A DNA stretch of 36,001 nucleotides from assembly GCA_030655775.1 (NCBI GenBank), contig JAUSPI010000066.1, positions 1 through 36,001 on the forward strand, in the 5' to 3' direction. The DNA comes from Syntrophales bacterium. GTDB lineage: Bacteria > Desulfobacterota > Syntrophia > Syntrophales > JADFWA01. Below, in pieces: positions 27,785 to 33,149 of the stretch (position 1 is its first letter; every line of letters starts with the position of its first letter). Under the pieces are notes generated by a model that was not told the origin of the DNA, searched no databases, and saw only the letters and a list, made by a program, of their open reading frames with translations. Made by a program: the position numbers and the translations under genes.

Positions 27785-28666
27785 GTGGACAAAAAGAAAT
27801 ATGAATTGAATGTTCAACTGGCTCAGATGTTAAAGGGCGGCGTCATTATGGATGTTGTCACTGCGGAGCATGCAAAGATCGCCGAGGAGGCCGGAGCTGT
27901 GGCAGTTATGGCCCTGGAACGTGTTCCCGCAGACATCCGCAAAGATGGTGGTGTTGCCCGTATGTCCGATCCCGCACTTATTGCATCGATCAAAGAGACA
28001 GTATCGATACCTGTTATGGCCAAGGTACGTATCGGTCACTTTGTGGAGGCCCAGGTTCTGGAAAGTCTAAAAATTGACTATATTGATGAGAGCGAGGTCT
28101 TGACCCCCGCCGATGAAGAATGTCATATTGACAAGACTAAATTTAGAATCCCTTTTGTTTGCGGGGCCCGCAATCTGGGTGAGGCACTGCGCCGCATAGC
28201 TGAGGGAGCAGCAATGATCCGCACCAAGGGCGAAGCGGGGACTGGGAATGTGGTTGAAGCAGTTCGCCATATTCGAACAATAAACCGTGAAATCAGACAG
28301 CTCGTCAACATGCCTGTGGAGGAGGTTGTCGGTTTTGCCAAGGACAATGGTTGCCCGTATGAGATTGCGCTCCAAGTTCGAGAACTCGGCAGATTGCCCG
28401 TTGTTAACTTTGCAGCGGGCGGTATAGCAACACCCGCGGATGCAGCCTTAATGATGCAACTTGGCTGCGACGGCATCTTTGTGGGATCCGGGATATTCAA
28501 ATCGGAAAACCCTTCTAAACGTGCAACGGCAATAGTTAAGGCAACTGCATACTATAACGATCCGGCAAAAATTCTGGAAGCCTCGATGGAACTTGGTAAT
28601 GCCATGCCGGGACTTGAAATTTCTGACATCCCGGAATCGCAGATCCTGGCGACACGTGGCTGGTAG
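27785..28666 (+). CDS. pdxS: Pyridoxal 5'-phosphate synthase, synthase subunit PdxS
   Basis: This 293-residue enzyme builds pyridoxal 5'-phosphate from ribose-5-phosphate, glyceraldehyde-3-phosphate and ammonia, in a 12-mer decorated with PdxT. Key residues are in place: D23 in GGVIMDVV, K80 in [10 protein letters not shown] (Schiff base with the pentose phosphate) and K148 in [30 protein letters not shown] and [12 protein letters not shown] are the phosphate-binding loops. The start is GTG at 27785 with GGGAGG 8 nt upstream; a nearby ATG (27780) is out of frame and quickly terminates. The partner pdxT follows after 156 bp. Confidence 0.97.
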
Positions 28667-28672
28667 AAGATT

Positions 28673-28727
28673 AAGTGCCTAAAGTGAGCTAAAGTTAACT
28701 GATTAAGACACTTAACTTTAGGCACTT
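28673..28727. repeat. Nested inverted repeats between pdxS and pdxT
   Basis: AAGTGCCTAAAGT (28673-28685) pairs perfectly with ACTTTAGGCACTT (28715-28727). CTAAAGTTAA (28689-28698) pairs with TTAACTTTAG (28712-28721). The two stems share the right-hand strand, so only one can form at a time. There is no T-run right after the stem, so it is a weak terminator candidate at best. It could be an intergenic repeat relic or an mRNA processing signal. Confidence 0.6.
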
Positions 28728-28822
28728 TAGTTCACTTCACTCTTCAAACTTCTTACATGAATCGGGACAGCACCTGTTTTGTTAGCGGTACTATCCCCAT
28801 TTGCACTTATCGAGAGAAATAA

Positions 28823-29479
28823 ATGTCATTGAAGGCAATCGGTGTGCTTGATCTTCAGGGTGATGTTGTTGAACACCTTGATCACCTTGAACGTCTGGGG
28901 CTTACCGGTGTACGTGTAAAAGAACCTACGGACTTTACTCACCTTGCCGGATTAATCATACCCGGTGGTGAAAGCACATGTCTCTTTCGGTTGCTGAATA
29001 TTTTCGGTATCAAGGAAATTATTATTCGTGAATTTCAGCGTGGGCTAAAGCTCTGGGGAACGTGCGCGGGAGCTATCCTACTCGCTAAAAGTATTGTAGG
29101 CGAAGCACCATGTCTCGGTCTTATCGATATTGAAATCCGGCGAAATGCTTTTGGAAGTCAACTGGACAGTTTTACTTCTGAGGCTCTTGTCCCCCGTGTG
29201 GCACCACAGCCGATACCCCTGACGTTTATTCGTGCTCCAAAAATTACTCAAGTAGGTGTTGGCGTTGACGTGCTGCTCCAGCAAAACGATTATATTGCGG
29301 CTGCGGAAAGTTCTAATATTCTTGTAACAGTTTTTCATCCAGAGCTTACACCATGCCTTGCATTCCATCGCTATTTCGCCCTTAAATGCGGCCTTAAACC
29401 CTCAAAAGATGAAAATCCTTCTTTATTTGATCCCACTTGGGACAGCAAAAGCTGGACCCGATACGTTAAGGTCATTTAA
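28823..29479 (+). CDS. pdxT: Pyridoxal 5'-phosphate synthase, glutaminase subunit PdxT
   Basis: This 218-residue class I glutamine amidotransferase feeds ammonia to PdxS. Visible are GVLDLQGDVVEHL, the oxyanion segment IIPGGESTCLFRLL (about 45-58), nucleophile C81 in WGTCAGAI and the H172/E174 pair in FHPELT. About 25 residues beyond the usual PdxT end (SLFDPTWDSKSWTRYVKVI) form an unassigned tail. No strong ribosome binding site is seen at 28823. It lies 156 bp after pdxS, with an inverted repeat between, so expression may be partly uncoupled. Confidence 0.96.
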   Translation: MSLKAIGVLDLQGDVVEHLDHLERLGLTGVRVKEPTDFTHLAGLIIPGGESTCLFRLLNIFGIKEIIIREFQRGLKLWGTCAGAILLAKSIVGEAPCLGLIDIEIRRNAFGSQLDSFTSEALVPRVAPQPIPLTFIRAPKITQVGVGVDVLLQQNDYIAAAESSNILVTVFHPELTPCLAFHRYFALKCGLKPSKDENPSLFDPTWDSKSWTRYVKVI

Positions 29480-29535: not shown

Positions 29536-30891
29536 TCAATTCTGCTTTAAACCATACTTGTTGAGTTTATACCGCAACATTCGCTCGCTGATGCCGAGTA
29601 TTTTAGCAGCTTTTGTCTGGTGGTAGTCAGTTTCTTCCATAGCCTCCTGGATTCGCTTCCGTTCCAGCATATCAAGCGATTCTTTCAGCGTTTTCCGGTC
29701 ATCTCCGGAATAAGGTGACACTTCCCTGAAGGGTAAGTCCTGAATGGATATCACCGGACTTCTCGAGACAACCACCGCCCTTTCAATAATGTTTTCCAGC
29801 TCCCTGACATTGCCCGGATAATCATACTTCAGAAGGAGGTCTTTCGCCTCGCTGCTTAAATCTTCTATCTCCCTTCTATTTTCAGAGGCAAAGCGGCGCA
29901 GAAAATGTTCAATCAATAAAGGAATGTCCTCTTTTCTTTCTCGCAGCGGCGGAATGGACACTACAACCACATTGACTCTGTAAAACAGGTCTTCTCTGAA
30001 AGTACCCTGCTTCACCTTTGCTTCCAGGTCCTGGTTGGTTGCACTAATTATTCTAATATCTGAACGAAGTGTCTCATTTCCCCCTAAACGTTGAAATTCA
30101 CGTTCCTGGAGAAATCTGAGAAATTTGACCTGGACGGGAAGCGACATCTCGCCAATCTCGTCCAGAAAAATAGTCCCCCCATCGGCTTCTTCAAATCGAC
30201 CTATCCTTCTTGAGGTCGCCCCCGTAAATGCACCTTTTTCATAACCGAAAAGTTCGCTTTCGAGCAGGTTTTCAGGCAATGCCCCGCAATTTACTGCAAT
30301 CATCGGCTTTTCCGAACGGGGGCTTATATTATGAATCAATCTGGCAAAGAGTTCTTTGCCGGTGCCACTTTCACCCTGTATCAGGACAGTGGCACGGCTT
30401 GAAGCAACCCTTCCGGCCATATTGATCAGCCTTTCCATTTTGGGGCTTCCGTATATTATCTTGTCAGTGATAACTCCCTTTTTCCATAGCTTCTCGCGGA
30501 GGATTTCATTTTCTCTGATAAGAGTCTGCCGCTCTGAGATCCTATCAATAAGAATATTGAGTTCATCCAGTTCTATGGGCTTGGTAATATAGTCAATGGC
30601 ACCTGCCTTCATGGCATCTACTGCTGTCTCTACCGTCCCGTAGGCAGTCATCATCACGACGTCGATTTCCGGGTTAATATTCTTTATCTTCTTAAGTGCC
30701 TCTATTCCATCCATTTTAGGCATTTTATAATCGAGGATCAACAGGTCAAAATAGCCTTCGAGAACTTTATTGACAGCAGTTTCCCCATCTTCGGCTTCTG
30801 CAACAACATGCCCCTGTCCGACAAGAAAATGCTTAAGCATCTCTCTCTGTGATTGGCCATCCTCAACAACAAGGATATGTAATTTATTCAT
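29536..30891 (-). CDS. NtrC-family sigma54-dependent response regulator
   Basis: This 451-residue regulator has three domains. The receiver (about 3-118) has phospho-Asp D54 in LLILDYKMP and Lys in ITKP. The AAA+ sigma54-interaction domain (about 140-375) has Walker A GESGTGKE, the intact GAFTGA loop that contacts sigma54 and Walker B GGTIFLDEIG. A Fis-type helix-turn-helix ends the protein (MEETDYHQTKAAKILGISER). The intact GAFTGA means it should activate sigma54 promoters. The ATG at 30891 is used; a TTG two codons earlier is less likely. It starts 19 bp after its kinase and is its obvious partner. Confidence 0.95.
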   Translation of the reverse strand: MNKLHILVVEDGQSQREMLKHFLVGQGHVVAEAEDGETAVNKVLEGYFDLLILDYKMPKMDGIEALKKIKNINPEIDVVMMTAYGTVETAVDAMKAGAIDYITKPIELDELNILIDRISERQTLIRENEILREKLWKKGVITDKIIYGSPKMERLINMAGRVASSRATVLIQGESGTGKELFARLIHNISPRSEKPMIAVNCGALPENLLESELFGYEKGAFTGATSRRIGRFEEADGGTIFLDEIGEMSLPVQVKFLRFLQEREFQRLGGNETLRSDIRIISATNQDLEAKVKQGTFREDLFYRVNVVVVSIPPLRERKEDIPLLIEHFLRRFASENRREIEDLSSEAKDLLLKYDYPGNVRELENIIERAVVVSRSPVISIQDLPFREVSPYSGDDRKTLKESLDMLERKRIQEAMEETDYHQTKAAKILGISERMLRYKLNKYGLKQN

Positions 30892-30910
30892 GGTCAAAAT
30901 ATCCTTACAA

Positions 30911-32716
30911 TTATTCTGTCCTTTTTACCGGCAGCAAGACTTCGAAAATAGTTCCTGAACCGGGCTTGCTCTTTACACGAATTTCCCCTCTATGTCCCCG
31001 TATAATCTCATGAGCCAGCGGGAGACCTAAACCTAGTCCTTTCTCTTTCGTTGTATACTCAGGGTCGAAAATGCGATCCACCTCTTCGGGTGTTAATCCA
31101 GAACCCGTATCCGAAACCTCGACACTCACCTTATCTGTCTCATCCGGCTTAACAGAAACTGTAATGGTTCCATCACCGGAAATCGATTCCATTCCATTTT
31201 TAAAGATATTGTAGAGCGCCTGCTCAAGTTTATCAACATCCATGGGAACCAGGGCATCGTTGCCATTCCAGACAGTTTTTATCGTAATACCCCTGGCCTT
31301 GACTTCCTCTTCCATAAGATCAACTATCTTCTGCAAAACATCTACAATAGAGTGGTCGCGAAGTTCCAGTCGACGGCTCCGGAAGAAGGTGACAAACTCC
31401 TCGATGATTCCGTTCAAACGTCTGATCTCATCACGGATAATTTTTGTTATGTGGTAAAATTCTTTTTTCTTTTCTTCACCTTGAGGAGAATGCTCTCGCT
31501 GGAGTCTCTGGCTGGCCATACTGATAGCATTCAATGGGTTACGGATTTCATGAGCTACTCCGGCGGCAAGTTGCCCAAGGGCAGAAAGTCTTTCAGCTCG
31601 CTGGAGTTGTTCTCCCATTTCTTCTATTCTTGCCAGATGCCTTTTCTGATTCCAGTAAAGCGCCCATATCGACACAATACCGATCAGCACGATGAATATC
31701 ATGGAAAAAAACATTCGGGTTTCATTTTCTTTGAGGATTTCGTTGGCCTTATCCATCTCGAGGCCGATCCGTGCATATCCAAACACCCTTTTATTCAGGC
31801 TAAACGGTGTGAGTATTTCGAGAATTTCCTTTCCGTCAAATAGGATCTTATGACTTGCCATCTTTGATTTTTCTGCCAGGATATCTTGGACAATTGAACT
31901 TGTCTTTCCAAATCCTTGTGGAATTTCACCAGCTTGCCCAAGCACCCTTCCCTGCTGATCCATAACCATTAAATAGGTCAGGCCCTGCCCCCACCCCACA
32001 TCTTCAATAACTTTATTAACAGTTACTTTGGTGCTCCAGTACCTTGTTCTTTTGTCATCCAGAGCAATAATAATGGTGCCCCTTTTATCTTTCCGGGGGA
32101 AGGTTATATAACTAATTTCGTCGAGCTTCCCGAATATATTCAATAGATATACAATTATATCTTTGTTTGTGGATATAATTGATGGAACCGTCGGTGCGTC
32201 GGCATCCTGAAGAAAATTTCTGCTCTGAAAAACAATCTTTCCCCGTTTATTGAAAAAAGTGATAAGAGAAAGATTGTCACGGTCGGCTATTTCCCCCATG
32301 TCCTCTGCACTTAGATGCTCCGTTTTCCATTCTTTATCTATTTTCTCTGCAAGATCCCCAAGAGTCTTTACAAGAGATTCTTGGTAAGAAAGTGCCTTAC
32401 CGGTAAGTTTGCCGCCCCCTTTAGGTTCTTTAAGTGCCCGGCGCAGATAATTTATATTTTCCTGCGTTACATTTTCGACGGTTGTAATGATATCAAGTCC
32501 TCTGTTCTCCATGAAACCAATCAGCGTTTTGTCAAGCCTTTTCCGTTCCATGATCCCCATGACCACAACTAAAAATATAAAAACAACGATAACGAGCGAC
32601 ACCGTCAAGGGCATTATATGTTTTGATATCGCTTTCTTATCTCTCTTTAAGGTTTCCACTTCTTCTTCCTCGATAATCTCGTAAAGTCCCGCATCATAAT
32701 ATTCGAATCGCCTCAA
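30911..32716 (-). CDS. Membrane-bound sensor histidine kinase, partner of the NtrC-type regulator
   Basis: This 601-residue kinase has a short acidic N-terminus, a first membrane helix (about 35-57), a periplasmic sensor of about 280 residues (possibly Cache-like, not assignable), a second helix (about 337-355) and a HisKA domain with H389 in GVAHEIRNPLNA. The ATPase domain follows (KLEQALYNIFKNGMES, DTGSGL, KGLGLGLPLAHEI). It should sense an extracytoplasmic signal and phosphorylate the regulator downstream. The only start upstream of the first helix without a strong site is TTG at 32716; an internal GTG at 32659 preceded by GAGG is an alternative, so the N-terminus is uncertain. A palindrome lies 36 bp upstream. 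Confidence 0.92.
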   Translation of the reverse strand: MRRFEYYDAGLYEIIEEEEVETLKRDKKAISKHIMPLTVSLVIVVFIFLVVVMGIMERKRLDKTLIGFMENRGLDIITTVENVTQENINYLRRALKEPKGGGKLTGKALSYQESLVKTLGDLAEKIDKEWKTEHLSAEDMGEIADRDNLSLITFFNKRGKIVFQSRNFLQDADAPTVPSIISTNKDIIVYLLNIFGKLDEISYITFPRKDKRGTIIIALDDKRTRYWSTKVTVNKVIEDVGWGQGLTYLMVMDQQGRVLGQAGEIPQGFGKTSSIVQDILAEKSKMASHKILFDGKEILEILTPFSLNKRVFGYARIGLEMDKANEILKENETRMFFSMIFIVLIGIVSIWALYWNQKRHLARIEEMGEQLQRAERLSALGQLAAGVAHEIRNPLNAISMASQRLQREHSPQGEEKKKEFYHITKIIRDEIRRLNGIIEEFVTFFRSRRLELRDHSIVDVLQKIVDLMEEEVKARGITIKTVWNGNDALVPMDVDKLEQALYNIFKNGMESISGDGTITVSVKPDETDKVSVEVSDTGSGLTPEEVDRIFDPEYTTKEKGLGLGLPLAHEIIRGHRGEIRVKSKPGSGTIFEVLLPVKRTE

Positions 32717-32751
32717 AAGTCAACGTTTTCCTTTAGGGAGTTTCGGGCGCA

Positions 32752-32769
32752 TTCGACAAAATTGTCGAA
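32752..32769. promoter_or_regulatory. Perfect 18-bp palindrome, possible NtrC-type activator site
   Basis: TTCGACAA-aa-TTGTCGAA is a perfect 8-bp dyad with a 2-bp centre. It lies 36 bp ahead of the kinase start and about 195 bp before a sigma54-type promoter, a usual enhancer distance. A half-site TTGTCGAA recurs at 32895-32902, and TTCGACAA recurs near 35561. It may bind the adjacent Fis-type regulator; this is inference. Confidence 0.55.
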
Positions 32770-32946
32770 ATTCGCAAAAAGGCTCCTTATGATATAAATG
32801 GTTGTATTTACAGAATTATTACTGCACTCTCAATCCATTTAATCGACATTTATTTCCTCAAATCTATTATAGGCATACTGTTAGTTTGATGAGATTGTCG
32901 AAAGATATCGTTTGGTTTCTATGTGTTAGAGTTCTTTAAATTGTTC

Positions 32947-32962
32947 TGGCACAGTAGATGCA
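32947..32962 (+). promoter_or_regulatory. Candidate sigma54 (-24/-12) promoter
   Basis: TGGCAC-AGTAG-ATGCA differs from the consensus TGGCAC-N5-TTGCA at one position. The GG and GC cores are separated by exactly 10 bp. It points right, away from the kinase, towards a region with no protein gene on that strand. An NtrC-type regulator lies next door and a palindrome lies upstream at enhancer distance. Confidence 0.6.
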
Positions 32963-32972
32963 ATGAAATATA

Positions 32973-33100
32973 CCGCTACCAAAGCAAATATGAAAAGAAG
33001 CTACTGACCTGTCAGGGACGAAGGTTGAAAATGTAATTTCAGGCCTAAACCTTGGCCGGGCAAGTAAACTCCAAAATCGGGGAGGTCAAATGACCTCCCC
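32973..33100 (+). ncRNA. Hypothetical sigma54-controlled small RNA
   Basis: If the sigma54-type promoter is used, transcription would begin near 32973 and meet a strong hairpin ending at 33100, giving about 128 nt. Frames within it are trivial. The candidate rests only on the promoter, the hairpin and the lack of a gene. No known RNA family was recognised, and the absence of a T-run after the hairpin weakens it. Confidence 0.3.
33079..33100. terminator. Strong symmetric hairpin, possible bidirectional terminator
   Basis: GGGGAGGTCA-aa-TGACCTCCCC is a perfect 10-bp stem. It lies 49 bp past the bioD stop (minus strand) and at the end of the proposed small RNA (plus strand). Neither side has a long T-run (GATTTTGG on the minus strand), so termination efficiency is uncertain. 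Confidence 0.5.
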
Positions 33101-33149
33101 CTCCTCCAAATCTTCCTTACTTTTCAAATACTGACAAAATTGCAGAAGT

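Follow-up and report, generated by a model that had tools for sequence, protein, structure and literature searches.

The Qrr small RNAs (sRNAs) of Vibrio are Hfq-dependent. One of the corresponding genes, qrr1, directly precedes luxO and is divergent from it (PMC8043402), and glmY likewise precedes the operon that encodes its regulators (PMC6075780), its product being a decoy that works with RapZ (PMC7073468). NrsZ and CrcZ are RpoN-dependent RNAs encoded next to their regulators (PMC8395346), and in E. coli the regulon of the response regulator ZraR is very small and centres on zraP and zraSR (PMC7657598). A locus that appears to belong to the same architecture class, that of a sigma54-dependent sRNA under an NtrC-type pair, is described here in a member of the order Syntrophales, with a -24/-12 promoter at the 5' end, candidate enhancer sites upstream and a GAFTGA-bearing activator nearby. 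The window analyzed comprises 36,001 nucleotides of contig 66 of a 3.04 Mb genome assembled in 276 contigs. Based on the comparison of this locus across the order, we consider it likely, with good confidence, that 32752-33107 constitutes a sigma54-dependent sRNA gene under the adjacent kinase-regulator pair, and that its product is probably an Hfq-independent anti-Shine-Dalgarno (anti-SD) repressor.

Results

The response regulator encoded beside the region of interest (Table 1) displays the Pfam domains Response_reg (2.6e-30), Sigma54_activat (4.9e-73) and HTH_8 (1e-13), and its GAFTGA motif is found in the context EKGAFTGATS, in agreement with a sequence-only reading of this DNA, which had placed such an activator in the adjacent gene pair. 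Among NCBIfam models the best scores were obtained with AtoC (523.8 bits) and ZraR (455.9 bits), both below the cut-off. The ZraPSR equivalog cut-offs were missed (ZraR, 455.9 of 760 bits; ZraS, 217.8 of 479 bits), and the pair is ZraSR-like in its logic, not a member of ZraSR. Judged by position, the histidine kinase is the cognate partner of the regulator; it shows a weak match to sCache_3_2 (Pfam), below the cut-off, and, since a close ortholog aligns from residue 20, translation may actually begin at the GTG near 32659. Homologs of pdxS and pdxT (SOR_SNZ and SNO; window 27785-29479, plus strand) converge on the response-regulator gene, in an ordinary arrangement. On the other flank, minus-strand genes resembling bioD and bioF face the 3' hairpin, and no gene-like ORF was found between 32716 and 33150, in line with the gene-free region into which the candidate promoter had been said to point.

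Table 1. Features of the kinase-regulator locus and of the predicted sRNA gene (window coordinates).
Feature	Position	Strand	Remarks
NtrC/AtoC/ZraR-type response regulator	29536..30897	-	Receiver, sigma54-activating AAA+ domain with GAFTGA, Fis-type HTH
Membrane histidine kinase	30911..32716	-	HATPase_c 1e-23, HisKA 3.8e-14
Candidate sigma70-like promoter of the kinase gene	32696..32723	-	TTGACT-N16-TATTAT, 10/12 consensus; consensus match only
Candidate enhancer (UAS) for the response regulator, TTCGACA-N4-TGTCGAA	32752..32769		Conserved spacing; putative regulator binding
Possible extra half-site, TCGACATTT	32843..32851	+	Kept in 3/3 family members; putative function
Possible extra half-site, TTGTCGAA	32895..32902	+	Exact copy of one palindrome arm; kept in 1/2 close relatives
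sigma54 -24/-12 promoter, TGGCAC-N5-ATGCA	32947..32962	+	Best match in window, both strands; same place in relatives
Predicted small RNA	32973..33107	+	5' end estimated from the -12 element, 3' end tentative
GC-rich 3' hairpin, terminator candidate	33079..33100	+	No T-run in window
Anti-SD candidate, CTCCTCC	33101..33107	+	Directly after hairpin; predicted unpaired; kept in 3/3 family members

The near-consensus sigma54 promoter noticed in the earlier reading was confirmed as TGGCAC-AGTAG-ATGCA, and the chance expectation of TGGCAYN6TGCW in both strands of the window is 0.24 matches. Kinase orthologs are present in 88 of the 92 good-quality genomes of the order, and the comparative set consisted of about 1.2 kb around the kinase start in 100 genomes, scanned on the RNA-sense strand; the kinase search of genome contigs yielded one close relative only. 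A -24/-12 match was found in 90 of 101 regions (window included), some of these matches being clearly spurious (e.g. L059, L106 and L121), and in the 85 aligned promoters that were retained GG, A and TGC are invariant; given that GG and GC were demanded by the scan, information comes from the remaining positions alone. The promoter is oriented away from the kinase and, in 76 regions, is preceded at 143-212 bp (median 191, sd 9.3) by a core of the form GACA-N4-TGTC; this spread is bounded by the search, which covered 120-260 bp from the promoter, but 58 of the 76 still fall within 187-194. The distance between palindrome and kinase, on the other hand, varies freely (sd 176), which argues that the palindrome belongs with the sigma54 promoter rather than with the kinase gene. 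Near-palindromes occupy the equivalent position in several of the other regions, and in a few relatives the palindrome-promoter unit is absent from the scanned region beside the kinase.

In the window, the palindrome is TTCGACAA-AA-TTGTCGAA, a perfect inverted repeat with 8-bp arms. As had been proposed, it lies 195 bp before the -24 element, but owing to its 2-nt centre it is an inverted repeat and not a palindrome in the strict sense. Together with the 3' hairpin it accounts for two of the three inverted repeats of the window with arms of at least 8 bp and a spacer of at most 2. The full 18-mer was detected in 14 of 41 genomes, mostly at the kinase locus (reversed control, 0), and across these 41 genomes the palindrome is nearly confined to the kinase locus and to sibling RNA genes. 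Likewise, a palindrome-N153-183-promoter pattern occurs at 13 places in 12 of the 395 genomes of the phylum, with none in the reversed control. The only other exact palindrome core in the genome of the window lies within ilvD and was taken as chance. In the closest relative (L031, about 450-700; same locus as G003:C185) three palindromes stand in tandem about 111 bp apart, each inside a longer repeated stretch, and two such tandem copies are found in G002 (L169).

Most families of the order share an RNA with a first stem carrying a GGG[CU]A loop, which is the most conserved part of the molecule, a second stem of the GAAGG/CCUUC type, a CU-rich stretch and a terminator, and its length in relatives is mostly 110-200 nt. 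Of 154 genomes of the order, 124 gave a match (E up to 0.05) to a covariance model built from 50 sequences; about 100 of the matches are strong and located mainly at the kinase locus, and the weak ones include chance matches. In 64 RNAs, 21 of 22 base pairs display changes on both sides and 89.8% of the cells are paired, in an alignment (A3) fitted to the structure, which favours this figure; none of 500 shuffles reached any of the measures and slides scored far lower. The same stems are present in the unfitted alignment (A1), in which they were first read, and RNAalifold alone recovers two of the three stems on the fitted one. Other families harbor different RNAs at the equivalent place, such as family f2, in which, by eye, CCUCCU occupies the loop of a 5' hairpin. 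No Rfam match at the gathering score was obtained for the window and 20 relatives, and at a relaxed threshold the window region gave no more than two weak matches, which look like chance. No description of such an RNA in Syntrophus was found in the literature searched, which is no proof of absence, and a paper on sigma54 in D. vulgaris contained no matching text; the order-wide family is apparently undescribed.

The RNA predicted in the window folds better than its shuffles (z -3.2), and its position is homologous to that of the covarying family. Nevertheless, it represents a diverged type that three members of its family share; it is partly conserved in two close relatives and is not detected by the covariance model. 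Conservation within this type extends to the arms of the palindrome, the greater part of the promoter, an AAACUCCAAAA stretch and the hairpin with the CUCCUCCAAA behind it. DNA searches with the window RNA matched only short pieces, pointing to fast divergence, and the presence of GUAAACUCCAAAAU in both the window RNA and some of the modelled RNAs suggests that they may be of common descent. The hairpin said to close the gene-free region does have 10-bp arms (GGGGAGGTCA-AA-TGACCTCCCC) and is the sole inverted repeat of the window with arms of at least 10 bp and a spacer of at most 4. Counterpart hairpins in most relatives are followed by T-runs, but that of the window is followed by CTCCTCCAAATC and is thus a weak terminator on its own, which leaves the 3' end uncertain.

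Further copies of the RNA, with palindrome and promoter, are present in G142, G139, G140, G009 (in tandem) and G021. The RNA gene of G021 lies, together with its palindrome, about 3.3 kb away from the kinase, in G002 it shares a contig with the bio genes and the kinase is on a different one, and in G037 a second RNA is found at 813867 with palindrome and promoter 190 bp apart. Model matches in G231, L221, L225 and L228 were dropped, as they came without palindrome and good promoter. The two tandem copies of G009 (L222, G009:C34:12519-13603) are about 960 bp apart and each has its own promoter. A third unit of G037 (L167, G037:C1, near 1678299) retains the 190-bp palindrome-promoter distance, and its RNA looks decayed, with no clear terminator.

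Of 77 RNAs, 59 carry CCUCC or CUCCU ahead of the terminator, against 14.1 expected from dinucleotide shuffles, and the CCUCC-type motif lies outside stems, the feature that marks anti-SD sRNAs of the alpha-r14 type. A search for Hfq (PF17209) was negative in 21 genomes and positive in the control genomes. This absence and the motif excess point to a blocking of Shine-Dalgarno (SD) sequences independent of Hfq, comparable to NfeR1. A single pattern search for targets, combining an SD sequence with AUGCCCGU, the complement of loop plus CU-rich motif, returned 44 matches, a modest excess over the reversed control, and no ortholog was shared among them beyond single genera or families. Pairing of the RNA with the kinase mRNA, as in a feedback, gave no signal (mean z -0.1). 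Since no target can be named, action of CCUCC/CUCCU on ribosome-binding sites is proposed here only tentatively.

In some genomes the same promoter arrangement precedes protein-coding genes. In G317 and G174, which lie outside the order, the palindrome-promoter unit stands ahead of Metal_resist/LTXXQ (ZraP/Spy-like) proteins with a kinase-like gene alongside, and within the order family f13 (L117) has a sigma54 promoter ahead of a ZraP/Spy-like protein and a near-palindrome upstream. A ZraP-like periplasmic protein was found as sigma54 output in L117, L172 and L174; no ZraP-like ORF was found as output of the promoter in the window. In other orders, a palindrome-promoter unit is located ahead of Metal_resist/LTXXQ proteins in L182 (G431:C153) and near a thioredoxin-like protein in L173 (G439:C54), contexts that hint at a wider envelope-stress regulon. 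The sigma54 promoter of L184 (G317:C433, minus strand, upstream of 1342) leads into a small SHOCT-like ORF interrupted by an in-frame TGA (GMMG-stop-GFGMGWLG), an interruption that may reflect recoding, a frameshift or a sequencing error.

Discussion

The sequence-only reading had been staked on conservation in relatives, and promoter, palindrome and hairpin are all kept across many families of the order. The features it pointed out are real and, by comparative sequence (conservation, near-fixed spacing and a covarying RNA in most families), its interpretation as a module leading from signalling to an RNA appears largely right; the family-wide RNA, the sibling copies, the anti-SD motif and the ZraP-type outputs come in addition. 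Promoter, palindrome, their spacing, RNA structure and sibling copies are established at the level of sequence comparison, and on them we base the following model. The membrane kinase would sense a signal, perhaps envelope stress, and phosphorylate the NtrC-type regulator, which would then bind TTCGACA-N4-TGTCGAA about 190 bp upstream and activate transcription from the -24/-12 promoter. The product would be a free-standing RNA ending in the GC-rich hairpin, expected to pair with ribosome-binding sites through CCUCC/CUCCU, and perhaps also through the GGG[CU]A loop, and to repress translation without Hfq.

The last step has the most serious competitor. A genuine sigma54-dependent RNA could act as a decoy, capturing an RNA-binding protein or another RNA, instead of blocking SD sequences, in accordance with the loop being the best conserved part, with the several sibling copies, as in decoy systems, and with the target search having found none. 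Against this stand the strong excess of CCUCC/CUCCU and the fact that the motif shifts its place between RNA types and yet recurs, and we therefore regard a decoy as rather unlikely, at about one chance in four.

Far less credit can be given to the palindrome acting solely as an operator of the kinase gene, the -24/-12 match and the hairpin then being due to chance or to bioD termination. The palindrome does lie just upstream of the sigma70-like kinase promoter in the window, and the hairpin is found beyond the 3' end of bioD. However, spacing is near-fixed relative to the sigma54 promoter and not relative to the kinase, the palindrome accompanies the RNA where the two are unlinked from the kinase, and the RNA covaries; this explanation is very improbable, even if the palindrome may have an additional autoregulatory role.

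A structured RNA with a terminator-like hairpin might also suggest a leader (riboswitch or attenuator) of a downstream gene, as might the same-strand orientation of the longest frame downstream in some genomes, but this reading is slightly less probable still. In the window, though, the downstream bioD is convergent, and elsewhere the downstream genes vary, their longest frame being on the opposite strand in 37 of 64 regions; moreover, T-run terminators stand before the downstream genes and sibling copies occur in unrelated contexts. A transcript encoding a small protein, in analogy to the small ZraP/Spy-like proteins that sister lineages place under the same promoter arrangement, is the least credible option, since on inspection the RNA alignment shows neither a conserved start codon nor a conserved frame, and its stems covary.

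With the sRNA as the preferred reading, one enhancer-promoter unit leads to a chaperone-like gene or to an sRNA gene depending on the lineage, so that an exchange of protein for RNA becomes directly amenable to study. We may tentatively hypothesize, at somewhat less than even odds, that the order swapped a ZraP-type stress protein for an Hfq-independent SD-pairing sRNA, which besides its siblings would be the only direct target of the regulator. If true, this would be a sigma54 activator with a regulon of essentially one RNA.

Among known systems, the locus resembles Qrr1-LuxO of Vibrio in the divergence of an sRNA gene from the gene of an NtrC-type sigma54 activator and in the occurrence of sibling sRNAs at other sites (PMC8043402), but the Qrr RNAs are Rfam families, and here there is no Rfam match, Hfq was not found in the genomes searched and both enhancer and RNA are different. 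Similarly, GlmY-QseEF/GlrKR of Enterobacteriaceae combines a sigma54 sRNA beside its own two-component operon with upstream activating sequences (PMC6075780), the GlmY enhancer being however TGTN12ACA, in three sites, and GlmY having no Rfam counterpart at this locus. NrsZ-NtrBC and CrcZ-CbrAB of Pseudomonas also present RpoN-dependent RNAs encoded beside NtrC-type systems (PMC8395346), in contrast downstream of the regulator genes, with CrcZ sequestering Hfq and both RNAs unrelated by Rfam. ZraPSR of E. coli shares the ZraR/AtoC-like sigma54 pair, the output gene alongside and the very small regulon (PMC7657598), although the output in the window is an RNA and not the ZraP protein. In mode of action, NfeR1/alpha-r14 of Rhizobiales is alike in its independence of Hfq, similar length, unpaired CCUCC-type anti-SD motifs and link to NtrC (PMC10746234), and differs in its sigma70 promoter, repression by NtrC, three anti-SD hairpins and phylum. 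Thus, to an architecture already known the present locus adds an order-wide and apparently undescribed sRNA family in anaerobes in which Hfq was not found (21 genomes searched), and what appears to be new is the RNA family, its host group and the use of an RNA in place of a chaperone as output.
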